From the NCBI GenBank assembly GCA_017541995.1, contig JAFXYD010000073.1, positions 1 to 54,926 on the forward strand: DNA of 54,926 bases, in the 5' to 3' direction. Positions 17,160 through 51,771 of the stretch are shown here, piece by piece; position 1 is the stretch's first letter, and each line of letters begins with the position of its first letter. The notes under the pieces were generated by a model that worked only from the letters and a program-made list of their open reading frames with translations, was not told the origin of the DNA and made no database searches. The position numbers were made by a program, and so were the translations under genes. The DNA is from Oscillospiraceae bacterium (GTDB taxonomy: Bacteria > Bacillota > Clostridia > Oscillospirales > Oscillospiraceae).

Positions 17160-17182
17160 AGAGGCCTCCTTTAAAACCGGAT

Positions 17183-17244: not shown

Positions 17245-17300
17245 GGCGGAATCGCAACGCGGTCCCGCCGCATAGAATGATGCGGAAGGGAGTGCTGCAA

Positions 17301-18596: not shown

Positions 18597-18673
18597 GGGA
18601 GATACCTCCGTTTGTGGTGTTTTCCGATATTCTACCATAATTCGCGCCGTTGCGCAACATCGAAAAATGATGG

Positions 18674-18702
18674 TTGTAAAACCGAATAGACTGTGATATA
18701 AT
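18674..18702 (+). promoter_or_regulatory. Promoter of uppP
   Basis: TTGTAA (18674-18679) and TATAAT (18697-18702) with a 17-bp spacer, 32 bp before the uppP start. Confidence 0.75.
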
Positions 18703-18734
18703 AACAAAACACGGGTTTAGAGGGAGGCGGGAGT

Positions 18735-36076: not shown

Positions 36077-36199
36077 TTACTTCATGCTCTGCTCGTAGGA
36101 CTCGATCATCTTCTTGACCATCTGGCCGCCGACAGAGCCGGCCTCGCGGGAGGTCAGGTCGCCGTTGTAGCCGTTCTTCAGGTTGACGCCAACCTCCCT
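36077..36199 (-). pseudogene. 3' remnant of an alpha/beta-type small acid-soluble spore protein gene
   Basis: The minus strand encodes the last 40 residues of an alpha/beta SASP, from EVGVNLKNG through GYNGDLTSREAGSVGGQMV to the C-terminal QSMK and stop. Intact SASPs are about 60-90 residues and coat spore DNA. The similarity stops at about 36,196 and the next codon upstream is foreign; an in-frame stop follows. Sequence beyond this point belongs to the conjugative element, so the gene was split by its insertion. The 5' half should lie at the far end of the element, outside the window. Confidence 0.85.
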
Positions 36200-37294: not shown

Positions 37295-37319
37295 GCGTCC
37301 CAAGTTGGGACGCTTTTTT
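37295..37319 (+). terminator. Palindrome site 1 (GTCCCAAGTTGGGAC), also a terminator
   Basis: The 19-bp palindrome GCGTCCCAAGTTGGGACGC (37295-37313) is followed by six T residues, 30 bases after the repA stop and 47 bases before parB. It can end repA transcription, but the same core recurs four more times in the element without a T-run, so a protein-binding role is also likely. Confidence 0.7.
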
Positions 37320-37359
37320 GATCGATACAATTCGAAAGCCTAACTTTAAGGAGGTCACT

Positions 37360-39135
37360 ATGCCCGAAGAACAAAACAAAGCAAAGAGTTCCGGAAACCC
37401 GGAAAAGCCCGCCGAGGCCAAGTCCGGCAAGCCGGAGGAGGCCAAGAAGCCCGAGGCTCCGGCGAAGCCTGCGGAGGCCAAGCCCGGTAAGCCGGAGGAG
37501 GCCAAGAAGCCCGAGGCTCCGGCGAAGCCCGCCGAGGCCAAGTCCGGCAAGCCGGAGGAGGCCAAGAAGTCCGAGACTCCGGCGAAGCCTGCGGAGGTCA
37601 AGCCCGGCAAGCCGGAGGAGGCAAAGAAGCCTGAGCCTCCGGCGAAGCCTGCCGAGGCCAAGCCCGACCAGCCGCAGGAAGCCAAGAAGTCCGAGGCTCC
37701 GGCGAAGCCTGCGGAGGCCAAGCCCGGCAAGCCGGAGGATGCAAAGAAGCCTGAGGCTCCGGCGAAGCCCGCCGAGGCCAAACCCGAGAAGCCGGAGGAA
37801 ACAAAGAAGCCTGAGCCCCCGGCGAAGCCTGCAGAGGCCAAGCCCGGCAAGCCGCAGGAAGCCAAGAAGCCTGAGACTCCGACAAAGCCCGCCGAGGTCA
37901 AGCCCAAAAAGCCGGAGGAGGCAAAGAAGCCCGAGGCTCCGGTAAAGCCCCAGGATGACAAGGCCGCCCGCACTAAAGCAGAGAAAAAGCCCGACGAGCA
38001 GAAGAAGCCCGTCGAACAGCAGAAGAAAGCGGAAGGTCCCGCAAAGGTCCCCGCCGCTGATCCGCAGAAAAAGCAGGAGGACAACGAGAAGGCCGGAGCT
38101 GTAGGGCTGGGTCTGGCGATCACGCAGATCTTTGCGGACCGTCTGGATTACCCCGACGAGAAGGCCATGAAGTCCCTTCCCGTTCCCAAGGAGAACGAAG
38201 GCTTTTCCATGCGCCTGCATCCGGCCTATTTCCGGGAGTTCCTGGATCATCCCTTCTCCATCAACCGGAACGTCAAGGACTACAAGGACCTGTATGAATC
38301 CATCCGGGACAACGGCATCTCTGAGCCGGTGCTGGCCCGTCCCGGTAAGGACGGCGGCCTGGAGCTGATTTCCGGCCACCGCCGTCACGATATTGCCAAA
38401 CAGCTCAACTATCCCATCCCCGTGGTCATTCGACAGATCGACGACGACTCCGCGCAGATCGCCGTGGTGGACGGCAACCTGCACCGCCAGGACATTCCCA
38501 CCTCGGAGCTGGCCCGCGCCGCCAAGATGAAGATGGACGCGCTGGCCCGGAAGGCTGGCCGACGTTCCAAAATGGAGCAGCTTACCTCTCCCGAGAAGCA
38601 GAAGCGCACGGATCAGATTGTCGCGGAGGATATGGGCATGAGCCGTAATCAGGTCCAGCGCCTTGTCCGCATCGACGCCCTGGTGCCGGAGCTGAAGCAG
38701 CAGGTGGACGACAAGAAGCTGCCCTTCAATACCGCCGTCGAGCTGTCCTACCTCAAGCCCGAGGAGCAAAAGCAGGTCGTAGACGTGATGCAGAAGGAAC
38801 AGATCACGCCCTCTATGGCCCAGGCAACGCAGCTCAAGGAGGCCAGCCGTCAAGCGGCGTCGTTGGAAAAGACAGCTCCCAGCGCAGCAGCTACCCACAG
38901 GGTTGACGAGAAGAAGGTCGCCCAGATCATTAAGCCCAAGGCGGACCCGCCCCTGAAGGTCACGCTGACCGAAGTGGAGCTGAAGGCCTACTTCCCTTCT
39001 CCGCTGCCCAGCCCTTTTGTCATCAAGCAGACGATCTACGAAGCCCTGTCCATGCGGAAAAAGGCACTGGAGAAGCAGGCCAAGAAGGACGCTGTGAAAG
39101 ACACGGTCAAGGCTGCGGTCAAGCCTGCCAGATAA
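37360..39135 (+). CDS. parB: ParB/Spo0J-family protein with nine N-terminal 20-residue repeats
   Basis: A 591-residue partition-type DNA-binding protein. Residues 16-195 are nine tandem copies of a 20-residue Lys/Pro/Ala/Glu-rich unit (KPAEAKPGKPEEAKKPEAPA), followed by a charged linker to about 225. The ParB N domain has the SGHRRHDIAKQL arginine motif, and a helix-turn-helix (about MSRNQVQRLVRI) follows. ParB proteins of similar elements are usually much shorter because they lack this tail. No ParA is adjacent. ATG 37360 follows AAGGAGG. Confidence 0.88.
   Translation: MPEEQNKAKSSGNPEKPAEAKSGKPEEAKKPEAPAKPAEAKPGKPEEAKKPEAPAKPAEAKSGKPEEAKKSETPAKPAEVKPGKPEEAKKPEPPAKPAEAKPDQPQEAKKSEAPAKPAEAKPGKPEDAKKPEAPAKPAEAKPEKPEETKKPEPPAKPAEAKPGKPQEAKKPETPTKPAEVKPKKPEEAKKPEAPVKPQDDKAARTKAEKKPDEQKKPVEQQKKAEGPAKVPAADPQKKQEDNEKAGAVGLGLAITQIFADRLDYPDEKAMKSLPVPKENEGFSMRLHPAYFREFLDHPFSINRNVKDYKDLYESIRDNGISEPVLARPGKDGGLELISGHRRHDIAKQLNYPIPVVIRQIDDDSAQIAVVDGNLHRQDIPTSELARAAKMKMDALARKAGRRSKMEQLTSPEKQKRTDQIVAEDMGMSRNQVQRLVRIDALVPELKQQVDDKKLPFNTAVELSYLKPEEQKQVVDVMQKEQITPSMAQATQLKEASRQAASLEKTAPSAAATHRVDEKKVAQIIKPKADPPLKVTLTEVELKAYFPSPLPSPFVIKQTIYEALSMRKKALEKQAKKDAVKDTVKAAVKPAR
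37405..37944 (+). repeat. 60-bp in-frame tandem repeats in parB
   Basis: Nine 60-bp units encode the 20-residue repeats of ParB. Units differ by third-position and a few coding changes (for example GKPEE to DQPQE), so the array has been kept in frame while drifting. Confidence 0.9.
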
Positions 39136-39147
39136 GGAGACGCTGCT

Positions 39148-39555
39148 ATGAACGTGCTTGTTGTCGAACCCGGTTATGCCCCCTATGAAAAAGAGATCAA
39201 CGGTCTGGAGGAGATGCAGGGCGTGGTGGGCGGCCTGATAACCGCAATTTACCCCTATGAGGAGCAGGTTGCCGTTGTCTGCAACGACGAAGGAATCCTG
39301 CTGCAGATGGACTTCAACCGCAGTATGCCCGGCGGCTACGGCGGCGTCTTCGGCCCCTTCTTTATCTGCGGTCTGAGTGAGGACAACTTCGATACCCTGC
39401 CGCCGGAGCTGATGCAGAGGTTCAAAAAGGAGTTTGCGAAAGCGGAAATCCTGCTGGGCTTCAAGGGAAACGATGCCGTTACCATCAAGGTAGACCCCAA
39501 GCAGCGCAGCCCGGAGGAGCAGCGCCGCAAGCCCAGACGCCCGGAGCGGTGCTGA
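39148..39555 (+). CDS. DUF3846 domain protein
   Basis: A 135-residue protein resembling the DUF3846 family found in conjugative elements and plasmids of Firmicutes: NVLVVEPGYAPYEKEI at the N-terminus, GGLITAIYPY and CNDEGI in the middle. The basic C-terminal tail (RRKPRRPERC) may bind nucleic acid. Function unknown. ATG 39148 after AAGGAG, 12 bp after parB; its stop overlaps the next gene's start region. Confidence 0.75.
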   Translation: MNVLVVEPGYAPYEKEINGLEEMQGVVGGLITAIYPYEEQVAVVCNDEGILLQMDFNRSMPGGYGGVFGPFFICGLSEDNFDTLPPELMQRFKKEFAKAEILLGFKGNDAVTIKVDPKQRSPEEQRRKPRRPERC

Positions 39556-39557
39556 CC

Positions 39558-40514
39558 ATGCCCTTCGCAAAATACGCCGCCGCACAGTCCCAGGAGGAAC
39601 GTTTGCGGGAGCTGACCGACAGGCTGGAAAACGGAATCAAGGAGCTATACGCCAGCGGACGCTACGCAGAATACCTGGCCGCCATGTCAAAGTTCCATCA
39701 CTACAGCTTCGGCAACGTGATTTTGATTCTTCTGCAATGCCCCACCGCTACCAAGGTCGCGGGCTACAACCGCTGGAAAAAGGACTTTGGCCGACAGGTC
39801 AAAAAGGGCGAGCATGGGATTTCCATTCTCTGCCCCTGTCCGCAAACCCGGTGGACGCAGAAGCAAAAAACAGATTCCGTTTCCGGTCTGCCGATCCTTT
39901 CCGAAGACGGCAGCCCCGTCATGGAGACTGTGCGCGTCACGATCCCGCGATTCAAGATCGGCACCGTCTTCGACGTAAGCCAGACCGAGGGCCGCGAGCT
40001 ACCCAGCATCGTGGCCTCGGAGCTGACGGGAGAGGTCGAATCCTTCCAAAGACTCTATGCCTGTCTTGCGAAGCTTTCCCCGGTCCCCATCACGGAGGAC
40101 GAGCTTCCCGGCGCCGCAAAGGGCTTTTTCAGTTCTGAGGAGCAGAGAATCGTCCTGCGGCGCGGGATGCCCCAGCTCCAGATCATAAAAACCCTGGTGC
40201 ATGAGATCGCCCACGCCAAGCTCCACGACAAAACCAAAATTCCCATTGAGGAGCAGAAGGTCCGCTCTCAGAAGGAGGTGGAGGCGGAAAGCGTGGCCTA
40301 TGTGGTCTGCCAGTACATTGGTCTGGACACCTCGGATTACTCCTTTGGCTACGTCGCCGGATGGAGCAGGGACAGGGAGCTGCGGGAGCTGAAGGACTCT
40401 CTCGGTATCATTCAAGCAGCCGCCGGAGAAATAATCTCCCAAATTGAGGCCGCCTTCGGACGGAGCCGGGAGCCGGAGCCGGTTCCCGAAAAACAACAAC
40501 TACAACAGCGTTAG
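39558..40514 (+). CDS. ArdC-like ssDNA-binding antirestriction protein with zincin domain
   Basis: A 318-residue protein of the ArdC class. The N-terminal ssDNA-binding part (about 20-110) has HHYSFGNVILILLQCP and AGYNRWKKDFGRQVKKGEHG. The C-terminal metallopeptidase-like part carries an intact HEIAH zinc motif (LVHEIAHAKLHD) and the third ligand in EAESVAY. Such proteins shield incoming single-stranded DNA from host restriction. ATG 39558 is chosen over GTG 39549, which lies too close to GGAG. Confidence 0.82.
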   Translation: MPFAKYAAAQSQEERLRELTDRLENGIKELYASGRYAEYLAAMSKFHHYSFGNVILILLQCPTATKVAGYNRWKKDFGRQVKKGEHGISILCPCPQTRWTQKQKTDSVSGLPILSEDGSPVMETVRVTIPRFKIGTVFDVSQTEGRELPSIVASELTGEVESFQRLYACLAKLSPVPITEDELPGAAKGFFSSEEQRIVLRRGMPQLQIIKTLVHEIAHAKLHDKTKIPIEEQKVRSQKEVEAESVAYVVCQYIGLDTSDYSFGYVAGWSRDRELRELKDSLGIIQAAAGEIISQIEAAFGRSREPEPVPEKQQLQQR

Positions 40515-40525
40515 GAGGAACGCAT

Positions 40526-40864
40526 ATGCCTATTCAAGTTATCAACCCCAATCTTGACAGCTTCCCGAAAACGGAGCTGCTGGGCTTCCCGATCCTGATG
40601 ATTCAGGCACGGGTGAGCCCCGAGACCGTCCACTTCGATCTTCACGTCTACGAGCTGAAGGCGGAGTTTGGCAAGAAAGACACGCTCACCCTTGTCCGGG
40701 ACGCAGGCGATCTGTTCATGGGGACGGTCATTTCCGCACTTCCCATTCTGCCGTCCGGGGAGGACAGCATCGCCCTCGAAGGAGGGGATTTCGAGCAGAC
40801 AAGCGCTCCGGTGGAAACCATGACCCTCTCTGAATTTGAAGCACGGTATGGGGCGCAGGGCTGA
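40526..40864 (+). CDS. Small accessory protein of the element, possibly LPD28-like
   Basis: A 112-residue protein without signal or membrane segments. It resembles, weakly and by eye, the LPD28-type domains of clostridial mobile elements (TVHFDLHVYEL, LFMGTVISALPI). No catalytic motif is visible. Start ATG 40526 follows GTTAGGAGG. The 3' end overlaps the next gene by 17 bases, so the two are coupled. Confidence 0.6.
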   Translation: MPIQVINPNLDSFPKTELLGFPILMIQARVSPETVHFDLHVYELKAEFGKKDTLTLVRDAGDLFMGTVISALPILPSGEDSIALEGGDFEQTSAPVETMTLSEFEARYGAQG

Positions 40865-41444
40865 GATTATCGACGTGCTGGCCTTCCTGGAAAAGATCGT
40901 CCTGGAGAACACAGACCACTACCGGGAAGACTTCCAGATGGACACTACCGTACTGACCAACGCCGCAAGGAACGAGCCGCCCGAGACAGCCTTCTTTTGG
41001 ATGAGCCGGGAAAACGGGACCTGGTGTGAGCCGGAACGGGAAACCTTCATCAAGGACAGCATCGCCTATAAGATCTGGACCTACTATGAGGGCTCTGAGG
41101 CAGCTGACCGGATCCGGGCTTACCGGATCGAGCTTCACGGCATGAAGGGCGATACAGTCCTGGGAATCGTCACACCGCTGGATTACAAGACCCATATCCA
41201 GCGGGTGATCCGAAGCGCGGTTCCCTATTCCCACATCCGGATCGGCTATGCCGATGGACATACCCAGCTTGTTGACACGGGACAGGACCGCTGGCACAGA
41301 GAATGTGACCGTCACGGAGAAATCACCGAGTACAGCTTTGTCCCGGCAGATGAACGAGCGCTGAATCTGGCAATCGCTGCCGAGCGAACAGCCCTTGCAC
41401 GCAAGCCGGAACGGAGGTCAAAACCGAGAAGCCCCGCGAGATAA
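40848..41444 (+). CDS. Hypothetical conserved element protein
   Basis: A 198-residue soluble protein not recognised. The N-terminal half is acidic (AEIIDVLAFLEKIVLEN, then ETAFFWMSRENGTWCE), the middle has an HGMKGDTVLGIVTP strand region, and the C-terminal 25 residues are basic (ARKPERRSKPRSPAR), hinting at DNA contact. Start ATG 40848 lies inside the preceding gene. It is the last gene before the putative oriT region. Confidence 0.65.
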   Translation: MGRRAEIIDVLAFLEKIVLENTDHYREDFQMDTTVLTNAARNEPPETAFFWMSRENGTWCEPERETFIKDSIAYKIWTYYEGSEAADRIRAYRIELHGMKGDTVLGIVTPLDYKTHIQRVIRSAVPYSHIRIGYADGHTQLVDTGQDRWHRECDRHGEITEYSFVPADERALNLAIAAERTALARKPERRSKPRSPAR

Positions 41445-41446
41445 AA

Positions 41447-41545
41447 CCAGCGGCGCCTGCGGCGTCGCTGGATTAGCAAGTATAGCATTTTGATAGCAAA
41501 ATGCACTTGTTAGGGGCCATGGCCCCTAAAACCCCAACGGTCAAT
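41447..41545 (+). other. oriT: Putative origin of transfer (oriT) region
   Basis: A non-coding stretch upstream of the mobilisation genes with three inverted repeats: CCAGCGGCGCC...GGCGTCGCTGG (about 41447-41471); CAAGT-ATA-GCATTTTG with CAAAATGC-ACTTG (41477-41509); and a perfect 20-bp palindrome centred on GGGGCCATGGCCCC (41510-41529). Inverted repeats of this kind next to mobC and a MOBP relaxase are the usual look of an oriT. The nick site cannot be fixed by eye. Confidence 0.55.
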
Positions 41546-41564
41546 GCGTCCCAACCTGGGACGC
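41546..41564 (+). promoter_or_regulatory. Palindrome site 2 (GTCCCAACCTGGGAC)
   Basis: GCGTCCCA-ACC-TGGGACGC, 19 bp, right after the putative oriT and just before the DUF7007 gene. No T-run follows. It is the same core as the sites at 37297, 46045, 48171 and 51729. Confidence 0.65.
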
Positions 41565-41587
41565 AATCCATGAAAGGAAGTGAGCTT

Positions 41588-42010
41588 TTGCAGCCCAGCT
41601 ATTCACCCTGGGGCGAGGTCGATTGGAGCGAAACCCTCTGCCCCGGCTTTGAGATGGTGGCCACCCCGAGCCACGGCGGGATCATGGTGGAGCGTACCGC
41701 GGCTATGCGTCTGTCTGCTGCCGCCCGGAAATGCGGCCAATGGGACGGCGGCTATCTCTGCTTTGAGGAAGACTGCGCCGAGAACGTGGTCCTGCGGGAG
41801 CTGCTGGACAAGGATATGTGGCAGATTCCGGAGCGCATCCGTGATCCCGAGGCCTTCGAGGAAGCAATCAATAAAAATATCCGGGAGTACAATCCGGAGT
41901 ATTGGAGCGCAAGACAACGGTGGTACAGGAAACGGGAGCAGGCGAAGCAGACAGAGAAGGAGGCGGGAGGGGCCCCTCGCAAGAGGCCGTTGCCTGCCGC
42001 TGTCAGATAA
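41588..42010 (+). CDS. DUF7007-like element protein
   Basis: A 140-residue protein of the type regularly found just before mobC in Tn1549-like elements: QPSYSPWGEV at the start, SHGGIMV, RKCGQWDGGYLCFEEDC and NPEYWSARQRWY. I prefer TTG 41588 because AAAGGAAG stands seven bases upstream; ATG 41570 has no ribosome site. Function unknown; its constant place suggests a role in relaxosome formation or early transfer, which is inference. Confidence 0.7.
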   Translation: MQPSYSPWGEVDWSETLCPGFEMVATPSHGGIMVERTAAMRLSAAARKCGQWDGGYLCFEEDCAENVVLRELLDKDMWQIPERIRDPEAFEEAINKNIREYNPEYWSARQRWYRKREQAKQTEKEAGGAPRKRPLPAAVR

Positions 42011-42013
42011 GCT

Positions 42014-42322
42014 ATGCGGAACAACGTCAAATCGGTACTGCTTCGACTGGACGCCGCAGAGCTTTCCAAACTGGATGCCTTGGTCCAAACCTCCGGCTTG
42101 AAGCGGGAACAGGTGCTTCGCAAGCTGATCCTGGGCGTCGAGCTTCGCCCTCGCCCACCCGACGCTCTGGGAGATCTCCTGCGAGAGCTGTCCGCCATCG
42201 GCAACAACGTCAATCAGATCGCGTACTGGGCCAATGCCAGACGGGGGATCACAGATGAGCGTATCCGGGAGGCGCAGGAGTTGGTCCGCCAGGCCCTGCG
42301 GCTGATCAAGGAGCGTTTGTAG
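42014..42322 (+). CDS. mobC: Relaxosome accessory protein MobC
   Basis: A 102-residue protein with an N-terminal ribbon-helix-helix-like segment (SVLLRLDAAELSKLDALV) and the MobC core (LRELSAIGNNVNQIAYWAN). It binds oriT and helps the relaxase open the strands. Begins three bases after the previous stop and ends immediately before the relaxase start. Confidence 0.88.
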   Translation: MRNNVKSVLLRLDAAELSKLDALVQTSGLKREQVLRKLILGVELRPRPPDALGDLLRELSAIGNNVNQIAYWANARRGITDERIREAQELVRQALRLIKERL

Positions 42323-43660
42323 GTGGCCTACGACAAGATCATTGCCATCCGCTCCCGGCTGGATCACTGTGTCAGCTACGCGCTGAACCCGGAGAAAACC
42401 GATCTGGCCGCCGCCCTGCGGTACATTGAGAACGAGGAAAAGATCAGCGGCGAACACCGGGTATTTGCAACAGCGCTGAACTGTTCTCTGGAAACAGCCT
42501 TCCGGGAAATGCAGGAAACCAAGCAGCGCTGGGGCAAGCCCGGCGGCGTCCTGGGCTATCACGTCATTCACTCCTACGCCCCCGGAGAAGTGATGCCGGA
42601 GCAGGCCCATGAGATCGGCGTCGAATTTGCCGCTGCCCTGCTGGGCGGCAGCTATGAGGCTGTTGTCTCCACCCACCTGGACCGGGATCATCTGCACTGC
42701 CATATCGTTTTCAACTCAGTCTCCCTGCTGGATGGACGGAAGTACCGAAGCAACAAAAAGACCTACTATGAGGAGCTGCGCGGGCTTTCCAATGAGATCA
42801 ACCGGAAGCACGGTCTGTCCGTGATTGAGACAAACGGAAGCGGAGAAGCCTATGCGGAATGGCAAGCCCAGGCCCAGGGCAAGCCCACGATCCGGGGCAT
42901 GATCCGTAAGGACATTGACGACGCGCTTGCCCAAGCCTTTACCCTGCATTCGCTCCTGTCTATTCTGCAAAAGCAGGGCTACACCATAAAAATCGGTCCA
43001 AAGCTCCGGCATACGGCAATCCGCCCACCGGGGGGCACAAGGTTTATCCGGCTGGACAGTCTGGGCGAAGGCTACACCGAGGCCGAGATCATCCAGCGGC
43101 TGAAAGCGGTCCGAGGCGGTACGCCTCCAAAGCAGACACCAGCAGAGAAAGCTCCTACAGTATTTCTTCCGCGGGGGAAATGCAGATATGTGCGAAAACC
43201 CACGCATCCCTTCCGGCGAAAGCCGGGCAGTCTGCGTGGGCTGTATTTCTACTATCTGCATTTGCTGGGAAAAGACCGGCCTATGAGAAGGCCGCCGTCC
43301 TTCGCCCTGCGGAAAGAGATCATCCGGCTGGAGCGATACCAAAAGCAGTTTCAGCTTTTGCGGGAATACCGCATCGACAGCGCTGCCCAGCTTGATGTGC
43401 TTCATTCTGCCCTGCAAGCCCAGATCGACGCCCTGACAGAGCGGCGCGGATTGTTCTACCGGGAGAAGCGCAGAGGAGCGGACGCCTCGGAGCAAATCGC
43501 CGCACTGACCGCAGCGCTGCGTGTCTGGAGAAAAAAGCTCCGACTGTGTGAACAGATTGCAGATACACTTCCGCAGCTCTCCCTGTCAGCGAAGCAAACC
43601 GACGATCCTGCCAAGCAGAACACGCCGTGTCCCGATCATCCGAAGAGCTTTGCGAGATAG
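42323..43660 (+). CDS. MOBP-type relaxase (MobA/VirD2 family)
   Basis: A 445-residue conjugative relaxase that nicks oriT and pilots the strand. The catalytic Tyr is probably Tyr19 in SYALNPEKT, and the metal-binding histidine motif is HLDRDHLHCH (118-127). A helical C-terminal part (about 330-430) may contact the coupling protein. The start is GTG 42323, directly after the mobC stop. The last 25 bases overlap the end of the convergent toxin gene. Confidence 0.92.
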   Translation: MAYDKIIAIRSRLDHCVSYALNPEKTDLAAALRYIENEEKISGEHRVFATALNCSLETAFREMQETKQRWGKPGGVLGYHVIHSYAPGEVMPEQAHEIGVEFAAALLGGSYEAVVSTHLDRDHLHCHIVFNSVSLLDGRKYRSNKKTYYEELRGLSNEINRKHGLSVIETNGSGEAYAEWQAQAQGKPTIRGMIRKDIDDALAQAFTLHSLLSILQKQGYTIKIGPKLRHTAIRPPGGTRFIRLDSLGEGYTEAEIIQRLKAVRGGTPPKQTPAEKAPTVFLPRGKCRYVRKPTHPFRRKPGSLRGLYFYYLHLLGKDRPMRRPPSFALRKEIIRLERYQKQFQLLREYRIDSAAQLDVLHSALQAQIDALTERRGLFYREKRRGADASEQIAALTAALRVWRKKLRLCEQIADTLPQLSLSAKQTDDPAKQNTPCPDHPKSFAR

Positions 43661-43944
43661 TCCGTTCTGCCATCCAGAATGCGGACGATCTCGATGTGTT
43701 CCGCTTCTATCAGGTAGAACACAAGCTGCTTTGACACCACCAAAAAACGATAATCCACTTCGATCCCGTCGTATTTGCTGCTCAGGGGCGTCCCCATAAA
43801 GGGATTGTCTTTCAATAGAGAGACGCTGTGCAGGACCTTCCGGCTGAGGGAATCCGCCGCAGCTGGATTGTGCAGCTTGTTCCGCAGATAGCCGCAGGTA
43901 AGCTCCAGATCCTGAAGGGCCGCTGGTCTGTATTTGATCTTCAT
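43636..43944 (-). CDS. RelE/ParE-family toxin
   Basis: A 102-residue toxin: KIKYRPAALQDLELTCGYL at the N-terminus and a conserved core DYRFLVVSKQLVFYLI before EIVRILDGRTDYL, typical of the RelE/ParE fold. It would cleave ribosome-bound mRNA or poison gyrase; the family branch is uncertain. ATG overlaps the antitoxin stop by four bases. Its 3' end overlaps the relaxase 3' end, so the two mRNAs are antisense there. Confidence 0.85.
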   Translation of the reverse strand: MKIKYRPAALQDLELTCGYLRNKLHNPAAADSLSRKVLHSVSLLKDNPFMGTPLSSKYDGIEVDYRFLVVSKQLVFYLIEAEHIEIVRILDGRTDYLAKLFG

Positions 43945-44246
43945 TCCGGCGTTACCCCAAATCTACGGTAAGCTTCCTCTTCCTCAATCAGCTCTCCGGA
44001 CTTCCGGCCCGCGTCCAGCTCCGCCATCAGCCGCTTCATGGCCTCGGCTCTGACGTATTCGGCGTTGTCCGACGTTACCGGAAACGGGAAGCCCCCGGCG
44101 TTCAGCGACTGCTGGATAAAAATGTTGATGGCCTGGGTGAAGCTGATGCCGCTTTTTGCATAGACAGCCTCCACCTCAGACCGAACCTGCGGATTGATGC
44201 GGAAATGATAACTGTCCGTCTTCGGCGCGGTCACGATGTTTTCCAT
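43941..44246 (-). CDS. RelB/DinJ-family antitoxin
   Basis: A 101-residue antitoxin with a RelB/DinJ ribbon-helix-helix N-terminus (SYHFRINPQVRSEVEAVYAK and FTQAINIFIQQSL) and a toxin-binding acidic C-terminus (ELIEEEEAYRRFG). I chose ATG 44246, after GGGAGGG; an upstream ATG at 44276 lies in the promoter. It is the first gene of the toxin-antitoxin operon and probably represses it. Confidence 0.85.
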   Translation of the reverse strand: MENIVTAPKTDSYHFRINPQVRSEVEAVYAKSGISFTQAINIFIQQSLNAGGFPFPVTSDNAEYVRAEAMKRLMAELDAGRKSGELIEEEEAYRRFGVTPE

Positions 44247-44276
44247 CCCAAATCCCTCCCATTCCTTGATACCCAT

Positions 44277-44304
44277 ATTATATCATAGAAAACGGCAAAG
44301 TCAA
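44277..44304 (-). promoter_or_regulatory. Promoter of the toxin-antitoxin operon
   Basis: On the minus strand TTGACT (44299-44304) and TATAAT (44277-44282) with a 16-bp spacer, about 30 bp before the antitoxin start. Confidence 0.75.
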
Positions 44305-44348
44305 TAGATGTAGCACAATGTTCCACAAATATAAGGAGGTGAACCAAA

Positions 44349-44933
44349 ATGGACGCAAGCACTGAGGTCGCTGACCTTGTGGTAAAGGAAAGCGTCCAGG
44401 TTGCCGAAGGCGCGTTGAAAATTGCCGGAAGCAGCCTGAAAAACATTGCCGCCCTGCTCCTGGCTCTGGCGAAGCAGGACGCGAAGGTGGTCGGCAAGAC
44501 CACCGCCAAGCGGCTGGCCCGCGATCCCAACGCGGCCATCGTCGTGCAGATTCCAGAAGCCGACAAGTCCAGATTCCGCAGGCTGGCGAAGAAGTTCGGC
44601 GTTCTGTATTTCATTGCCCAGAAAAAGGGCAATCAAAGCGGCGTGATCAACGTCGTCTCCAATGAAAACTACGCTGCCCAGCTCAACGCCATCATGCAGG
44701 AGCTGGGCTATCCGCTTCCCGAGAAGCCGGTGGAAACGGCAAAAAAAGCGACGCCCCGTACTCAGTCCGAGAGATCCTCGCCAGAGCGAAGGAATGGCTC
44801 GACACCGAGGACGGGGACACAGACCAGTGATGCCCCTGAAAAGCCCTCCGTCCGGAAGCGGCTGGAGGCGCTGAAGCAGGCTTCCGACAAGATGAAGAAC
44901 GGCCCGGAACGGGAAAAGGAACACACACGTTAA
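44349..44933 (+). CDS. PcfB/DUF3801-family conjugation protein
   Basis: A 194-residue protein of the PcfB/DUF3801 family, whose enterococcal member PcfB is a relaxosome-coupling adaptor. The N-terminal helix region (1-45) is amphipathic, the core has IVVQIPEADKSRFRRLAKKFGVLYF and the GVINVV strand, and the C-terminal 60 residues are charged and disordered. Strong site AAGGAGG before ATG 44349. Divergent from the toxin-antitoxin promoter. Confidence 0.82.
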   Translation: MDASTEVADLVVKESVQVAEGALKIAGSSLKNIAALLLALAKQDAKVVGKTTAKRLARDPNAAIVVQIPEADKSRFRRLAKKFGVLYFIAQKKGNQSGVINVVSNENYAAQLNAIMQELGYPLPEKPVETAKKATPRTQSERSSPERRNGSTPRTGTQTSDAPEKPSVRKRLEALKQASDKMKNGPEREKEHTR

Positions 44934-44943
44934 GGAGGAACCT

Positions 44944-45813
44944 ATGGCTAATTTAGCAGAACTGATTTCCCAAAAAACCCAGAAGGATGAACAGTGGAAG
45001 GCAGAAAAGGCAGCCGAGCGTGAGAACGCCGTCGCCATGCAGGACACCGGTATTTCCCTGATTGCCAGCGACCCGGACGCCTACGCCCGCTATCTGGATA
45101 TGCAGGGCGTCAATTATATGTACAGCCCCGGCAACATTGCCCTGGCTATGGTCCAGAACCCGGAGCTGAGCGTCATCGGCACGAAGGACCGCTGGCGCAC
45201 CCTCAACCGCAGTATCCGCGACGGCGAGCAGGAGAAGGGCGTCCAGATTTTCGCCCGGTCTCCGCTGGGCAAGGGCTACAGTCTCGCATACGCCTACGAC
45301 ATTACCCAGACCGCCGGGCGGGAGCTTCGGCAGCCCCATCTGGAGGACGATTCGCCCCAGATGGCTTCCGCGCTGAGCGTCCTGCTCAACTACTCCGTCG
45401 TCCCCATCAAGACCGACGATCAGATGGGGGAAGCGGCCTACTACGATCCGAACCGCATGGAGCTCTATGTGAATCCCAACGTGGCGGATCACACGGCCTT
45501 TGCAGCCATCGCCGCCGAAATCGCCCATGTGCGCTTCCATTCCAAGGGCGCCAACAGCGGTTACTCCCGAGATGACTATGAGCTGGACGCCCAATCGGTC
45601 TCCTATCTGCTCTGCAAGCGCTTCGGCGTCGAATGCGAAATGCCCGAGCTGTCCGGCCTTTTGGCGCTGTATCAGGGCTGGTCCCCCCAGGAGATCCGGC
45701 AGGCCCTGGATGCCGTGCAGGACATGAGCAAGCAGATCGGCGGCTCCATCGACAAGGCGATCTCGCCCCAGCAGCACATGCGGGGCCAGGCCCTGCGGCG
45801 GCCCGCCAGGTAA
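44944..45813 (+). CDS. Degenerate zincin-like (ArdC-related) element protein
   Basis: A 289-residue protein whose C-terminal half is related to the metallopeptidase domain of the ArdC-like protein at 39558: AAEIAHVRFH lines up with VHEIAHAKLH and LDAQSVSYLLCKRFGVE with VEAESVAYVVCQYIGLD. The first zinc His is Ala here and the distal Glu is replaced, so zinc binding and catalysis are probably lost. The N-terminal half (about 40-140) resembles the ssDNA-binding part. ATG 44944 after AAGGAGG, 10 bp after the DUF3801 gene. Confidence 0.7.
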   Translation: MANLAELISQKTQKDEQWKAEKAAERENAVAMQDTGISLIASDPDAYARYLDMQGVNYMYSPGNIALAMVQNPELSVIGTKDRWRTLNRSIRDGEQEKGVQIFARSPLGKGYSLAYAYDITQTAGRELRQPHLEDDSPQMASALSVLLNYSVVPIKTDDQMGEAAYYDPNRMELYVNPNVADHTAFAAIAAEIAHVRFHSKGANSGYSRDDYELDAQSVSYLLCKRFGVECEMPELSGLLALYQGWSPQEIRQALDAVQDMSKQIGGSIDKAISPQQHMRGQALRRPAR

Positions 45814-45836
45814 AGCCTCGGCGCAAAACCCGGAAA

Positions 45837-46032
45837 GCGGGGTGTGTCCCCCTTTGACAGTATATGCCGGCAGCCACCGGCAGTAAAGGCGCCGACCAGT
45901 TTGCGAACTGGTCGGGCCTTGACAGCCGGCGTCCGCCGGCATGGGCCTCAAACAAGGGGATCACACCCCTGCTCTGCCCGGGCGGGCGGAGCAGCAATCA
46001 TGGGGGCGGGTGCGGATTTCGTACCCGTCCCC
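45837..46032 (+). ncRNA. Structured RNA candidate before virD4
   Basis: A 196-nt non-coding stretch with five nested or consecutive stems. A long-range helix GGGGTGTGTCCCC (45839-45851) pairs with GGGGA-T-CACACCCC (45956-45969) and closes a domain with three hairpins: GCCGG/CCGGC (45866-45881), a roughly 15-bp hairpin around GACCAGTT-TGCG-AACTGGTC (45886-45920) and GCCGGC-GTCC-GCCGGC (45925-45940). Two further hairpins follow, GCTCTGCCC/GGGCGGAGC (45971-45992) and GGGGGCGGGT/ACCCGTCCCC (about 46003-46032). It could be a cis-regulator or a trans-acting RNA. Confidence 0.6.
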
Positions 46033-46044
46033 GGCATGAAATGC

Positions 46045-46059
46045 GTCCCAAGCTGGGAC
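46045..46059 (+). promoter_or_regulatory. Palindrome site 3 (GTCCCAAGCTGGGAC)
   Basis: The 15-bp palindrome lies 9 bp before the likely virD4 start, between the structured region and the ribosome site. If bound by a protein or folded in RNA it would sit next to virD4 translation initiation. Confidence 0.65.
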
Positions 46060-46068
46060 AGAAAAGAG

Positions 46069-47838
46069 GTGCTGCCTATCCGTCAACGAAACTCCTTCCG
46101 GAAACAGTTCCCGGCCTATGCCGTGTTTTCCGTTTTTGTCCTCTGGCTCGGAGCCCTGGCCGCCGCCGCCTACACGGAGGGAATGAATCTGTTGTCCTTT
46201 CTGCAGGCGTTTTCCGCGCAGCTCTCCCGGCCCTTCGCTCTGAACTGGACCCCGCACAGTTTGAAGTTCCTCGTCGGAGCAATGGGGCTCTATGTCGCAG
46301 TAGTTGCTTTCTTCTGCGTCACAAAAGAGAACCGTCGTCCCGGCGAGGAACACGGCTCCGCTCACTGGGGCAGCGCAAAAGCGCTCTGCCGGAAATACCG
46401 GGACAAGGACGAGACAAAGAACGTCATTTTGACCGAGCACGTAAAAATGAGTCTGAACAGCCGATTACACCTGCGAAATCTCTTACAGGTAATTGTCGGC
46501 GGCTCTGGCTCCGGCAAGTCCCGGTATGTAGTCAAGCCCAATGTGATACTTGCCAACTCCAGCTACATTGTTACGGACCCCAAGGGCGAGCTGCTGCGCT
46601 CCTGCGGTTCCTTGCTCTTGCAGGAGGGCTACACGCTGCGGGTCTTTGACCTGATCGACCCGGAAAACTCCAACTGCTTCAATCCATTCCGCTATATCCG
46701 CAAGGACAGCGACGTGTTCCGGCTGATCGACAACTTCATCAAGAACACGACCCCGAAGAACGCCCAGCAAACGGACCCCTTCTGGGAAAAATCCGAAATC
46801 GCCCTGGACGCATCCATCATGCTCTATCTGCGGCACGAAGCACCGGAACGGGAGCAGACGATGGAAATGGTGCTGACCATGATCGAATACGGTGGGGCCA
46901 AGGAGGAGGACGACGATTACAAGTCTCCCCTCGATCTGCTCTTTGAAGCGTTGGAGGAGGAAAAGCCAAACCATATCGCGGTCCGCCAGTATCACATCTT
47001 CAAGCAGGCAGCAGGCAAGACGGCGAAATCCATCCTTGTGGGGGCCGCTGTCCGGCTCACCGCCTTCACTCTGCCGGAGATCCAGCGCATCACGGATACC
47101 GACGATATGGAGATCAGCCAGTTGGGAGAACGGAAGCAGGCTATTTTCTGCATCATCCCGGACAGCAACGACGCCAGCTTGAACTTCCTGGTGGGTCTGC
47201 TCTACACCTGCGCGTTTCAGGAGCTTTATTACCAGGCGGACAAGGTACACGGCGGCGGGCTCCCGATCCCGGTGCGGCTGATGTTCGACGAGTTTGCCAA
47301 CGTCGCCCTTCCGGACGGCTACGCCAGATTGCAGGCCACCATGCGGAGCCGGAACATCATGGCGACCATCATCCTGCAAAACATCTCCCAGCTTAAAGAA
47401 CTGTTCAAGGACAGCTGGGAGGGTATCATCGGCAACGCGGACGCCTTCCTGTACCTGGGCGGAAACGAGCAATCTACCCACAAATACATTTCCGAGCTGC
47501 TGGGCAAGGAGACGATTGATACCCTGTCCACCAGCCAGAGCAAGGGCAGAAACGGATCGTACAGCAAAAACCGGCAGCAGACTGGCCGGGAGCTGATGAC
47601 CCCGGACGAGGTACGGATGCTGGACAACCGGAATGCGATCCTGCTCCTGCGGGGTGAGCCGCCGGTCATTGACCAAAAGTACAATTTGATGAAGCATCCC
47701 AACATCAAACGCACCGAGGACGGCGGTGCGGCCCCTTACCATCACAGCCCGGTCTGTCTCTATGAAGCGGACGATCTTGACTTCTCCTTTACCACACTTG
47801 ACGAACTGGACATCATTGATATGGAGGACCCCGAATGA
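46069..47838 (+). CDS. virD4: VirD4/TraG-type conjugative coupling ATPase
   Basis: A 589-residue coupling protein that links the relaxosome to the transfer channel. Two N-terminal membrane segments lie at about 17-36 and 66-84, Walker A GGSGSGKS at 144-151 and Walker B with following motif in RLMFDEFANVALPDG. The start is unsure: GTG 46069 directly follows AAAAGAG, while ATG 46036 has no ribosome site and would put palindrome site 3 inside the gene. The stop overlaps the next start by four bases. Confidence 0.88.
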   Translation: MLPIRQRNSFRKQFPAYAVFSVFVLWLGALAAAAYTEGMNLLSFLQAFSAQLSRPFALNWTPHSLKFLVGAMGLYVAVVAFFCVTKENRRPGEEHGSAHWGSAKALCRKYRDKDETKNVILTEHVKMSLNSRLHLRNLLQVIVGGSGSGKSRYVVKPNVILANSSYIVTDPKGELLRSCGSLLLQEGYTLRVFDLIDPENSNCFNPFRYIRKDSDVFRLIDNFIKNTTPKNAQQTDPFWEKSEIALDASIMLYLRHEAPEREQTMEMVLTMIEYGGAKEEDDDYKSPLDLLFEALEEEKPNHIAVRQYHIFKQAAGKTAKSILVGAAVRLTAFTLPEIQRITDTDDMEISQLGERKQAIFCIIPDSNDASLNFLVGLLYTCAFQELYYQADKVHGGGLPIPVRLMFDEFANVALPDGYARLQATMRSRNIMATIILQNISQLKELFKDSWEGIIGNADAFLYLGGNEQSTHKYISELLGKETIDTLSTSQSKGRNGSYSKNRQQTGRELMTPDEVRMLDNRNAILLLRGEPPVIDQKYNLMKHPNIKRTEDGGAAPYHHSPVCLYEADDLDFSFTTLDELDIIDMEDPE

Positions 47839-48167
47839 AACAAACGAAGAAAACCAAAAACAACTGCAAACAATCCATCCGGCTGTTGGGCGCTTGGGCG
47901 GCCCTGGTGCTCTGCGCCGCGACACTGCCAACTGCGGCCTATGCCGCCGGAGGCGACCCTCTGAGCGTCGTCAACAATCTGTCCGATTTCATCTTTGCCG
48001 CGATCCGTGCCATTGGCATTATCATCCTGGGCTGGGGCGTGGTGCAGGTGGGCATGAGCGTCCAGAGCCACGACGCCAGCCAGCGAACCCAGGGCTTCCT
48101 GTGTCTGTTCGGCGGCCTGCTGATTACCTTTGCCAAAGACATTCTGACCCTGATCGGCGCGATCTGA
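47835..48167 (+). CDS. VirB2/TrbC-like (Maff2-type) pilin subunit
   Basis: A 110-residue small membrane protein: basic N-terminus, first hydrophobic segment (about 17-37) with a possible signal-peptidase site at AYA-AGG, then two hydrophobic segments (about 52-73 and 85-107) separated by a short polar turn. This is the layout of VirB2/TrbC pilins. It may line the channel or form a short surface appendage. ATG overlaps the virD4 stop. Palindrome site 4 follows three bases after its stop. Confidence 0.72.
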   Translation: MKQTKKTKNNCKQSIRLLGAWAALVLCAATLPTAAYAAGGDPLSVVNNLSDFIFAAIRAIGIIILGWGVVQVGMSVQSHDASQRTQGFLCLFGGLLITFAKDILTLIGAI

Positions 48168-48170
48168 GCT

Positions 48171-48185
48171 GTCCCAACTTGGGAC
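48171..48185 (+). promoter_or_regulatory. Palindrome site 4 (GTCCCAACTTGGGAC)
   Basis: Perfect 17-bp palindrome including flanks (TGTCCCAACTTGGGACA, 48170-48186), between the pilin stop and the virB6-like start. No T-run follows. Confidence 0.7.
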
Positions 48186-48202
48186 AAATAACAGGAAGGA
48201 AG

Positions 48203-49042
48203 GTGGAGCCAAACTGGATCATTGATTTACTCGAATCCGCCCTTCAAATCTGGACGGACAAACTCTCCGAAATCTGGAGTCTGCTGACGCAGACGCCCCA
48301 GAGCTTCCGGGGCGGCAGCATTTGGGGCGCGGTCTCCAATATCAGCGGGGCTTTGACCGGCATCGGCTACGGTCTGCTGGTGCTGTTCTTTGCCATGGGC
48401 GTCTTCTCCTCGGCGTCGTCCTTCCGGGAAATGCAGAGGCCGGAGTTCGCGCTGCGCTTCTTCATTCGCTTTGCCGCAGCCAAGATCATGGTGGGTCACG
48501 CTATGGAGATCATGCTCGCGGTGTTTGAGATCGTGGGCGGCGTTGTCTCCGCTGCCATGAACAGTATCGCAGGCGGTGTCAGCTCGGCGGCGCATCTTCC
48601 CGCGGAGATCGTTGCCGCCATCGACGATCTGAGCTTTCTGGAATCCATACCGCTCTGGCTGGTCTCGCTCCTGGGAACGCTGCTTATCACAGTCTTGTCC
48701 TTTGTGCTGATCCTGACGGTATATGGGCGGTTTTTCCGGCTCTACGTCTATACCGCCGTCGCGCCGCTTCCCATGGCCGCCTTTGCCGGAGAGGAATCAT
48801 CCCAGCACGGCAAGGCGTTTCTGAAATCCTACACCGGGGTCTGCGTTGAGGGCGTCGTCATCGTGCTGGCCTGCATGATCTACAACACATTTCTTTCCGG
48901 CAGCGCCTATACCGTGGATGCCACAGCCTCGGCCGTGACCATGTGCTGGGAATACTTGGGGGAAACGGTATTCAATATGCTGATCCTGGTGGGATTGGTC
49001 CGAGGCGCTTCCAGAATTGCAAAGGAGATGTTTGGATTATAA
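48203..49042 (+). CDS. VirB6/TrbL-like channel protein
   Basis: A 279-residue polytopic membrane protein with about six hydrophobic segments (for example GLLVLFFAMGVF, IPLWLVSLLGTLLITVLSFVLIL and VVIVLACMIYNTFL). It corresponds to the CD0411/TrbL-type protein found between the pilin and PrgI genes in Tn1549-like elements, a likely inner-membrane channel part. The best start is GTG 48203, six bases after AGGA; no ATG is available. Confidence 0.78.
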   Translation: MEPNWIIDLLESALQIWTDKLSEIWSLLTQTPQSFRGGSIWGAVSNISGALTGIGYGLLVLFFAMGVFSSASSFREMQRPEFALRFFIRFAAAKIMVGHAMEIMLAVFEIVGGVVSAAMNSIAGGVSSAAHLPAEIVAAIDDLSFLESIPLWLVSLLGTLLITVLSFVLILTVYGRFFRLYVYTAVAPLPMAAFAGEESSQHGKAFLKSYTGVCVEGVVIVLACMIYNTFLSGSAYTVDATASAVTMCWEYLGETVFNMLILVGLVRGASRIAKEMFGL

Positions 49043-49060
49043 CGAAAGAGGTGAGGAGTT

Positions 49061-49405
49061 ATCGAAATCAAAATACCGAAAGAAGTACGGGCGCACAGTG
49101 AAACGATTGTGCTGGGGCTGACCGCAAGGCAGCTGATTTGCTCTGTGATTGCCATTGCCCTGGCCGCTGGGCTCTATCTCGGCCTGAAGGACACGCTGGG
49201 AAAGGACAACGCAAGCTGGATCTGCCTGCTGGCTGCCGCGCCATTTGCCGCGGCGGGCTTTTTCCGCTACAACGGGATGAGCTTTGAGCAATTCGTTTTC
49301 GCCTGGTTCAAGGTCAGCTTCCTCTGCGGCGGCAACCGGGGCTATCACAGCGAAAACATCCATTATGCCGCCCTCGGCAGGAAGGAGCGTGACGACTTTG
49401 ATTAA
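49061..49405 (+). CDS. prgI: PrgI-family conjugation membrane protein, non-canonical start
   Basis: A PrgI-type protein of about 114 residues with two membrane segments (about 24-41 and 50-68), part of the Gram-positive type IV channel. Coding similarity begins at EIKIPKEVRAHSETI, the usual PrgI N-terminus, but the frame has no ATG, GTG or TTG there. The codon in the expected start place is ATC 49061, preceded by GAGGTGAGGAG. The first canonical codon is GTG 49109, which would remove the conserved N-terminus. I annotate from ATC 49061 as the most likely biological start. Confidence 0.7.
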   Translation: MEIKIPKEVRAHSETIVLGLTARQLICSVIAIALAAGLYLGLKDTLGKDNASWICLLAAAPFAAAGFFRYNGMSFEQFVFAWFKVSFLCGGNRGYHSENIHYAALGRKERDDFD

Positions 49406-51725
49406 GACCCTCGCTGCGGCGAACAAATCCGAAAAGGTCCCGTTCCGTGTGCCGAAGACCGTCCAGCAATCCATTCCCATTGAACGGATTTATCCGGACG
49501 GCACCTGGCTGGTGGGCCGCAAGCACAGCCGGACCTGGCGCTTTACAGACATCAACTACGCTTCCGCCTCTGACGCGGATCAAAAGCGGATCTTCAAGGG
49601 CTACTGCGCCGTCATCAACAGCCTGCCTACGGATGCCAGCTGCAAGATCACGATCGTCAATCACAGGCTGAATCCGGTGGACTTTGAGCGCACAATGCTG
49701 ATGAAGGACCGGAGCGACGGCCTGGACCAGTACCGGCACGAAAAGAACCGGCTCCTGATGGATCGGGCTTCACTCAGCAACAACCTTGTGCAGGACAAAT
49801 ACATTACCATCTCCATCCCCCAGCGAAAGAAGAAGGACAGCGACGACTACTTCTCCCGGGTGGACAGCAATCTGACCGGCAGCTTCGGCAAGCTGTCCTC
49901 AATGGCAGCGATGCTCGGAAACGCGGATCGGCTCCGTCTGTTCCACGATTTTTTCCGGGCAGGGGAGGAGCCCTATTACCGCTTCGACCATGAAGCCTTG
50001 TTGCAAAGCGGCGCCAGCTATAAGGACCTGATTGCCCCCGACGGTCTCGCCTTCAAAAAGGACTATTTTGAAATGGGCGGCAAATACGGGCGGGTACTGT
50101 ATCTGCGGGAGTACGCCAGCTACATCTCCGATCAGTTGATCTCCAATCTGACGAACTTTCCCCGGAGCCTGATCCTCAGCATTGATATGCTCCCGATCCC
50201 CACGGATGAAGCGGTCAAGGATATTCAGCGGAAGATTCTCGGTGTAGAAAGCGACATTACCCGCTGGCAGCAGCGGCAGAACGGCAAAAATAATTTCTCC
50301 GCCAACATTCCCTACGAGTTGGAGCAGTCCCGGGCCGATACCCGCGAATATCTGGACGATCTGACCAACCGGGACCAACGGATGATCTTTGCCGTGGTGA
50401 CGCTTGTGCATCTGGCCGATACCAAGGAGCAGCTGGACGCCGACACGGAAAGCCTGGTCAGCATCGGCGGGGAGAGCGTCTGTACCTTCGGCACGCTGCG
50501 CTACGAGCAGGAGCAGGGGCTGAACACGGTGCTGCCCTACGGTCTGCGGCAGGTCCACGCTCTGCGGACGCTGACCACCGAGAGCACGGCGACCCTAATG
50601 CCCTTCCGGGTGCAGGAGATCCAGGATCGGGGCGGCTTCTGCTACGGCGTCAACGCCATCTCCCGCAATCTTCTGATCTGTGACCGCAAGCGGCTGATTT
50701 CTCCCCACGCCTTTTATCTCGGCGTCAGCGGCTCCGGCAAGTCCATGACCATGAAGAACACCATTGCGGATGTGGTGCTCGGGACCGAGGATGATGTGAT
50801 TATCATTGACGCCGAGCGCGAATACGGCTCCCTTGCCCGTGCCTTCGGCGGCGAGGTCATTCAGATCTCCCCGTACAGTCAGCACCATATCAACCCGCTG
50901 GAGGTCAGCGCCGCTCTGGGCAAGGACGAAAACCCGGTGGCCATGAAGTCCGAGCTGCTGAACTCGATTATAGAGCAGCAGATGGGCGTCGGCATCTTCA
51001 CAGGCGCGCACAAGTCCATCATAGACCGCTGTGTGCAAGCTGTGTTCCGGCCTTGGCAGAAGAGCAAAGGTCGGAAGCCCATGCCGCTGCTGACCGACTG
51101 GCGCAGCGAGGTCCTGAAGCAGCCGGAGCCGGAGGCCCGGGAAATTGCCCTTGCCGCAGAGATCATCACGGAGGGCAGCCTGAACGTCTTTGCCCATCCC
51201 AGCAACGTGGATGTGAACAGCCGGATCATGGTGCTGGACCTCTACGAGATGGGCGACCAGCTCCGTCCGACAGCCCTGGTCGTCACCCTCGACGCCATCC
51301 AGAACCGGGTCATGGAAAACCGCAAGCGGGGCAAGTTCACCTGGGTTTTCATCGACGAGGTATATCTGTACTTCAAGTACCACTACTCGGCGGAAATCCT
51401 CTACAAAGCTTGGAAGCGTTTTCGGAAGTACGGCGCGGCGTTGACCGCGGCGACGCAGAATGTGGAGGAATGCCTGCGCTCCGAAACCGCCCGACTCATG
51501 TTCGCCAACTCGGAGTTCCTGATCCTGCTGAACCAGGCAGCCACCGATCGGGAGGAGCTGGGGCGGCTGCTTCACATCTCCGAAACGCAGATGGGATTTA
51601 TTACCGACGTAGAGGCCGGTCACGGCTTGCTCCGTATGGGCGGGGCAATCGTTCCCTTCGCCAACACCATGCCGAAGGACACGAAGCTCTACAAGCTGAT
51701 GAGCACCACGCCGGGAGAAGGCTAA
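49398..51725 (+). CDS. virB4: VirB4/TraE-type conjugative ATPase
   Basis: A 775-residue transfer ATPase that powers channel assembly and transport. Walker A GVSGSGKS lies at about 442-449 and Walker B with FTWVFIDEVY at about 648; the EREYGSLARAFGG and AALTAATQNVEECL stretches fit VirB4. TTG 49398 is ten bases after AAGGAG and overlaps the prgI stop by eight bases; GTG 49389 is only one base from that site. Palindrome site 5 follows three bases after its stop. Confidence 0.92.
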   Translation: MIKTLAAANKSEKVPFRVPKTVQQSIPIERIYPDGTWLVGRKHSRTWRFTDINYASASDADQKRIFKGYCAVINSLPTDASCKITIVNHRLNPVDFERTMLMKDRSDGLDQYRHEKNRLLMDRASLSNNLVQDKYITISIPQRKKKDSDDYFSRVDSNLTGSFGKLSSMAAMLGNADRLRLFHDFFRAGEEPYYRFDHEALLQSGASYKDLIAPDGLAFKKDYFEMGGKYGRVLYLREYASYISDQLISNLTNFPRSLILSIDMLPIPTDEAVKDIQRKILGVESDITRWQQRQNGKNNFSANIPYELEQSRADTREYLDDLTNRDQRMIFAVVTLVHLADTKEQLDADTESLVSIGGESVCTFGTLRYEQEQGLNTVLPYGLRQVHALRTLTTESTATLMPFRVQEIQDRGGFCYGVNAISRNLLICDRKRLISPHAFYLGVSGSGKSMTMKNTIADVVLGTEDDVIIIDAEREYGSLARAFGGEVIQISPYSQHHINPLEVSAALGKDENPVAMKSELLNSIIEQQMGVGIFTGAHKSIIDRCVQAVFRPWQKSKGRKPMPLLTDWRSEVLKQPEPEAREIALAAEIITEGSLNVFAHPSNVDVNSRIMVLDLYEMGDQLRPTALVVTLDAIQNRVMENRKRGKFTWVFIDEVYLYFKYHYSAEILYKAWKRFRKYGAALTAATQNVEECLRSETARLMFANSEFLILLNQAATDREELGRLLHISETQMGFITDVEAGHGLLRMGGAIVPFANTMPKDTKLYKLMSTTPGEG

Positions 51726-51728
51726 TCT

Positions 51729-51743
51729 GTCCCAACTTGGGAC
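51729..51743 (+). promoter_or_regulatory. Palindrome site 5 (GTCCCAACTTGGGAC)
   Basis: Identical core and flanks to site 4 (TGTCCCAACTTGGGACA, 51728-51744). It separates virB4 from the surface-protein genes and lies about 28 bp before the next -35 box. Confidence 0.7.
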
Positions 51744-51771
51744 AAAAAAGAAGCCGGGATATTTGAAAAAT

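Follow-up and report, generated by a model that had tools for sequence, protein, structure and literature searches.

An orphan ParB as the probable reader of dispersed palindromes in a conjugative element of gut Clostridia, and a code linking half-site to helix-turn-helix domain

What would place one and the same short palindrome at gene boundary after gene boundary of a conjugative element? The question is raised by a stretch of 54,926 nucleotides from an Oscillospiraceae bacterium (contig JAFXYD010000073.1, positions 1 to 54,926; hereafter the window), in which a sequence-only reading had listed five copies of a 15-bp palindrome and, given the nearby parB gene, had suggested either parS-like sites or operators of a single transfer regulator. 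An exact search for the motif GTCCCAASYTGGGAC returned all five copies just where they had been listed. Each consists of a pair of GTCCCAA half-sites with a single base between them, two of the five copies being one base off in the right half. The sites and the genes around them are as follows.

36320 to 37264, + strand: repA (RepA_N, DUF6017), left neighbor of site 1
37297 to 37311, no strand: site 1, GTCCCAAGTTGGGAC, in the gap between repA and parB
37360 to 39135, + strand: parB, with ParB_N and HTH_ParB (Pfam), the proposed reader of the sites
41548 to 41562, no strand: site 2, GTCCCAACCTGGGAC, 3' of an oriT-like inverted repeat
42014 to 43660, + strand: MobC/NikA-like protein and relaxase, 3' of site 2
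46045 to 46059, no strand: site 3, GTCCCAAGCTGGGAC, immediately 5' of virD4 and 3' of the IrrE-like gene
46072 to 47838, + strand: virD4 (T4SS-DNA_transf), 3' of site 3
47835 to 49042, + strand: TrbC-like pilin and TrbL/virB6 genes, flanking site 4
48171 to 48185, no strand: site 4, GTCCCAACTTGGGAC, in the gap between the TrbC-like pilin gene and virB6
49392 to 51725, + strand: virB4-like ATPase, 5' of site 5
51729 to 51743, no strand: site 5, GTCCCAACTTGGGAC, immediately 3' of virB4

The element, which we take to be Tn1549-like, begins with repA, parB, the genes for DUF3846, ArdC-like and LPD28 proteins, the oriT-like repeat, MobC/NikA and the relaxase, and continues with RelB/ParE (on the other strand), DUF3801, the IrrE-like gene, virD4, the TrbC-like pilin gene, TrbL/virB6, prgI and virB4; the TrbC and IrrE-like matches lie under the curated Pfam cut-off. 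A transfer module of MobC/relaxase, VirD4, PrgI, VirB6 and VirB4 is thus present along with RepA_N; contig and window end together, so that what lies further right in the element is out of view. The RelB/ParE-type toxin-antitoxin pair (window 43636-44276, - strand) sits within the transfer region. At its left edge the element adjoins a cut-off spore protein gene (window 36080-36199, - strand), whose 40 remaining codons match the Pfam SASP profile from position 21 to its end; this truncated gene is possibly the site of insertion. Megablast found no relatives of the element DNA among annotated plasmids and a scan of viral contigs likewise none, while a distant search with virB4 gave two weak matches from Subdoligranulum.

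With up to three mismatches the window contains 12 matches to the motif against a shuffle mean of 6.55 (sd 3.30), and 9 of 100 shuffles reach as many; this being unremarkable, the weight rests on the exact copies. In the genome searched (2,483,587 bases in 122 contigs, 78% complete) searches with GTCCCAANNTGGGAC and with the looser GTCCCANNNTGGGAC both return these five places alone, and the reversed control returns none. The motif is hence confined to the element, in agreement with the earlier remark that the backbone had no copies. Among 391 Clostridia genomes GTCCCAANTTGGGAC was found at 13 places in 8 genomes (its reversed control in 3 of the 391, once per strand); three of the 13 are in this window, six of the other ten lie within parB genes of a shorter type and four elsewhere. 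The copies had been described as always lying in short non-coding gaps: they do stand at gaps, but at sites 2 and 3 reading frames stay open upstream across the site, so that "non-coding" there hinges on the start codon used. At site 2, which is 5' of the gene preceding mobC, a frame starting at ATG 41501 runs open through the site and a later start, ATG 41570, avoids it. A promoter arrangement common to the five sites was looked for and none was found.

To see the palindromes in the context of related elements, we gathered 46 loci around VirD4 relatives, 44 of them at least 68% identical. GTCCCA palindromes stand at corresponding gaps in seven loci (L063, L064, L067, L068, L080, L090 and L100, with L063 and L067 from one genome). 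A motif-free search, in which several short loci yielded no repeated palindrome, recovered, in many relatives, palindromes of different sequence at these gaps; they are built around one central base from GTCTCAC with GTGAGAC, or from GTTTCAC with GTGAAAC. The GTTTCAC half-site equals that of chromosomal parS, where no central base separates the half-sites. Counting palindromes of any type, the gap between pilin gene and virB6 is occupied in 36 of 38 loci, that upstream of parB in 5 of 6, that upstream of mobC in 8 of 13, that upstream of virD4 in 15 of 36, that between virB6 and prgI in 13 of 34 and that after virB4 in 10 of 27. The richest related element has 22 sites across 37 kb, seven of them in one ORF and six of these at 123-bp spacing. 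GTTTCAC-type sites are seen within a coding tandem repeat with a period of 123 bp (41 codons), reminiscent of a centromere array, at L077 17308-18094, L075 16930-17299 and L095 6551-6688. Around more distant VirD4 matches (48-62% identical) the exact GTCCCAA palindrome is absent from all 20 loci (L043-L062), L062 having one single-mismatch copy inside virD4. One of these loci, L048 (G231, 810-18791), displays a dispersed palindrome of its own, AACATTCCCAATGTT, at similar places together with a ParB of different HTH; this palindrome is AT-rich and its reversed control is not clean in G231 (10 vs 5). GTCCCAASTTGGGAC itself also lies at position 1501 of L006, L142, L147 and L148 within an ORF with the peptide SQLGT, which to us looks MobC-like; these copies may be a coding coincidence or a second site. 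Conservation in related elements had been proposed as a check on the palindromes: their position and symmetric build are indeed kept, but the half-site sequence switches between groups. Of the two outcomes named beforehand as refuting the reading, neither came about, since the rest of the host genome lacks the motif and palindromes recur at these gaps in relatives.

The type of palindrome goes with the type of ParB. A GTCCCANNNTGGGAC site is present in 14 of 43 genomes, and at least two in six: G346 (12), G370 (10), G380 (10), G347 (7), G362 (3) and G350 (2). In these six genomes GTCTCA sites and GTTTCA sites each number fewer than two; conversely, genomes with at least two of either contain at most one GTCCCA site. 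Six genomes have at least two GTCTCA as well as at least two GTTTCA sites. Four genomes have at least seven GTCCCANNNTGGGAC sites, and these same four alone have a ParB sharing 68-75% identity with that of the window, while orthologous ParBs of the other palindrome groups are 39-46% identical to it. Over the matched part the values are 63-76% for GTCCCAA elements against 40-45% for the others, the largest contrast seen. For G350 and G362, which have few sites, the search for a matching ParB came up empty. As to the reversed control of GTCCCANNNTGGGAC, G370 has 7 copies and each of the other 42 genomes 0-2. The VirD4 tree does not reject the GTCCCAA elements as one clade (p-AU 0.169), and the VirD4 and VirB4 trees together leave their single-clade status undecided; as they are possibly one clade, the link to ParB within this family could reflect a single event or shared descent.

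The window ParB consists of Lys/Pro/Ala/Glu-rich repeats followed by ParB_N (PF02195, 4.7e-09) and HTH_ParB (PF17762, 1.7e-05), both above the Pfam cut-off. It aligns with Spo0J, ParB and Noc chains and, as regards CTP binding and clamp closure, the SGHRR and GNLHR segments are present in the alignment. It has D, the HTH segment SRNQVQR and an N at the position of residue 201 of Caulobacter ParB; this numbering rests on alignment to Spo0J and on the spacing of 28 residues, free of gaps, between R173 and G201. A structure model built with 7 sequences is of moderate confidence (mean pLDDT 63.6, pTM 0.42). In the ParB of a GTTTCAC element (L071 3189-5132) ParB_N falls in two stretches, and there the window ParB has Lys/Pro-rich repeats.

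A second source of information on what such proteins bind is provided by the shorter parB genes (about 300 aa) of sister elements, which often contain a perfect palindrome in the linker directly before the HTH codons. These intragenic palindromes (L164-L202 and L210-L299) reach 31 bp, vary from gene to gene and match the HTH. In a first set of 46 shorter-type genes, with redundancy kept, arms of 12-15 nt were seen in 27; when the synonymous codons of such a gene were shuffled 300 times, at most one shuffle attained this length. Five members of the set (L156-L160) came via the motif search, and the same five are also among the protein-search matches. A second set comprised 90 of 132 listed matches, of which 13 were dropped as more than 95% identical; among the 77 that remained, arms of at least 12 nt were present in 18 and arms of at least 7 at the expected place in 39, the other 38 having none. 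Shorter palindromes (arms 9, 6, 7 and 8) also occupy this position in four parB genes from named plasmid records; they are matched by 7, 90, 22 and 10 of 300 shuffles and are weak if taken alone. Comparison of half-site with HTH used the 35 genes of the first set and the 39 of the second that have an arm of at least 7 in the expected part, a total of 74 genes with 37 distinct 7-nt half-sites.

In the 35 genes the distance between sites follows that between HTHs (Mantel r 0.586) far more closely than that between N-terminal domains (0.137), with a partial value of 0.60 and 0 of 5000 permutations as high; as the intragenic site adjoins the HTH codons, linkage alone could create part of this correlation. 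At the level of single residues, all 13 genes with R201 have C at half-site position 6, and none of the 61 genes without R201 has it; the new genes alone give 8 of 8 against 0 of 31. The same R201-C6 rule has been measured for Noc (PMC7383237). On the N-terminal-domain tree the R201 genes cluster, two changes being forced and four required by parsimony, so that the Fisher value of 9.6e-15 overstates their independence. Two other rules drawn from the first set failed on the new genes (17/35 and 29/39). Prediction from the nearest neighbor at nine HTH positions, chosen after the first 35 genes and with neighbors less than 70% identical, recovered 87% of bases and 33 of 74 half-sites exactly, against 58% and 2.8 for shuffles, the maxima over 300 shuffles being 64% and 11. 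In 39 gene pairs the N-terminal domains share 85% identity or more. Three of these pairs (L171/L172, L181/L187 and L164/L179) have N-terminal domains 95-99% and C-terminal parts 96-100% identical, but HTHs 41-69% identical and sites that differ at 2-4 of 7 bases. In L171 and L172 the proteins are 99% and 100% identical outside the HTH and 69% within it, and 2 of 7 site bases have changed.

How does the window ParB fare under this code? A clean test set of 131 genes, obtained by protein search whether they had a palindrome or not, comprised 127 distinct genes; the combination D, RNQ and N201 goes with GTCCCAANTTGGGAC in all eight genes that have it and GTCCCAANTTGGGAC is found in none of the 119 others, and D, RNQ and R201 goes with GTCCCCANTGGGGAC in all three. 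The window ParB equals two of the GTCCCAANTTGGGAC genes at all nine positions compared, and its own dispersed GTCCCAA sites are unlinked to the HTH codons. The GTCTCAC and GTTTCAC groups have no close neighbor and received no full prediction. Application to the window ParB of a code drawn from other parB genes is the strongest evidence for ParB as the predicted reader of the palindromes.

We therefore propose, at a probability of roughly three in four, that the palindromes are candidate loading sites for a clamp formed by the element's own ParB (37360-39135), acting without a nearby ParA and put to a KorB-like use. A ParB dimer would read the two GTCCCAA half-sites around the central base via its HTH, a step predicted from the sequences compared here. 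By analogy with its family, the clamp would then probably close with CTP and slide onto the adjoining DNA, and with sites every few kb through the part that serves replication and transfer, such clamps would become spread over the element. The least certain step, again by analogy, is that transfer genes and replication genes might thereby be damped in concert, much as by KorB. Relatives retain the positions of the sites, while their half-site changes at many of them at once along with the HTH of ParB.

The parS-like or regulatory role that had been suggested from the nearness of parB is thus supported, with the recognition code now pointing to ParB itself, but its partitioning version has become less likely. 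In that version the sites would be centromeres by which an excised, replicating element is partitioned, with the ParA coming from elsewhere, such as the host Soj or another element. We regard this as improbable, though it draws on membership in the ParB family, on the relative with its evenly spaced sites in one ORF and on the same half-site being used by sister parB genes that do have ParA (the shorter type has ParA within 1.5 kb in 11 of 19 cases). Against it, the sites are dispersed along the transfer region instead of clustered. Moreover, no ParA gene (Pfam) lies between repA and parB in the window, and ParA (PF13614) was found within 1.5 kb of 0 of 13 parB genes of the window type from 12 genomes, some on short contigs, which makes partition less likely than KorB-like control. 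The ParA-box G[KR]G[LFI] was also considered as evidence: it is absent from 26 of 26 orphan ParBs but also from 35 of 35 shorter ParBs and, being missing in both types, is uninformative.

Another reading would have the palindromes act in RNA, as hairpins at gene ends serving as terminators, processing signals or mRNA-stability elements. Several sites do lie a few bases 3' of a stop codon and site 1 resembles a terminator, with a stem at 37295-37313 and six T behind it, but site 1 alone among the five has such a T-run, as the sequence-only reading had observed in setting aside a shared terminator role, and sites 2-5 are absent from the terminator-like matches in the window. Rfam matches nothing in the window except 5S rRNA. 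Across 32 GTCCCA sites, some from one genome counted twice, the flanks have symmetric base preferences, and flanking bases pair in 21, 17, 29 and 15 cases against 16.4, 18.1, 29.1 and 17.6 in shuffles; symmetry with pairing no higher than in shuffles suits a dimer reading two half-sites better than it suits a paired stem, and leaves an RNA role very unlikely. Hardly any credence goes to operators of another element protein (MobC/NikA, IrrE-like or RepA), which would accord with the site adjoining the oriT-like repeat and with IrrE-like identities of 57-59% among GTCCCAA elements against 34-51% for the others (21-24% cross-matches to the ardC locus excluded), since the contrast is largest for ParB and the code learned at other loci points to it. 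No observation made here favors RepA.

Parts of the proposed system have precedents. The closest is KorB with its operator O_B on plasmid RK2, which PMC11790492 describes as another member of the ParB family from a conjugative element, one on which short inverted repeats are numerous and dispersed, with long-range control of replication and transfer genes; a title cited there speaks of 12 O_B sites on RK2, to be set beside five in the window and up to 22 in a relative. The same text describes the CTP clamp and sliding of ParB-family proteins. KorB differs in belonging to a Gram-negative plasmid, in its site and in working with a ParA partner (IncC) and KorA, and the window protein matches HTH_ParB with no Pfam KorB domain listed; the likeness is further limited in that the window is known from sequence and repression there is a proposal. 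The ParABS and Noc systems of Bacillota share ParB_N with HTH_ParB and the R201-C6 rule (PMC7383237), but the window sites have a central base, no ParA near them and are spread over a mobile element. The integrative conjugative element ICEclc likewise encodes a ParB-like regulator, BisD, but BisD is an activator acting with BisC, has a parA in the same region and, in the available text of PMC7423338 and PMC12704722, comes with no report of dispersed palindromes. ParT of the Streptomyces plasmid SCP2 resembles the shorter parB genes in having its parS inside its own ParB-like gene, but it is a single plasmid system and CTP-independent (PMC12260392), whereas the sites that go with the window parB are intergenic and dispersed. 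As a class, orphan ParBs of mobile elements have been described (PMC12704722), and PMC5512222 mentions both Tn1549 and ParB. KorB, BisD, orphan ParBs of mobile elements and the intragenic parS of ParT are thus already known; in the open-licence literature searched we found no prior report of these sites or this code, and Tn1549, palindrome and ParB nowhere together.

In sister elements the site inside parB directly precedes the HTH codons, so that reader and target may be exchangeable as one cassette. We lean toward a broader picture in which conjugative elements of gut Clostridia would be organized by an orphan ParB clamp with evolvable, centromere-like sites that track its HTH, with exchange of such cassettes and with a predictive code. 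If this is true, a natural code would allow an unstudied ParB's target to be predicted from the protein sequence, and the palindromes would be a candidate means of global control over conjugative elements of a widespread type. The 74 genes and 37 half-sites offer a naturally occurring collection of ParB genes, each with a matching target, for the question of HTH specificity, and the near-identical pairs with different HTH and site suggest how mobile elements may gain mutual independence.
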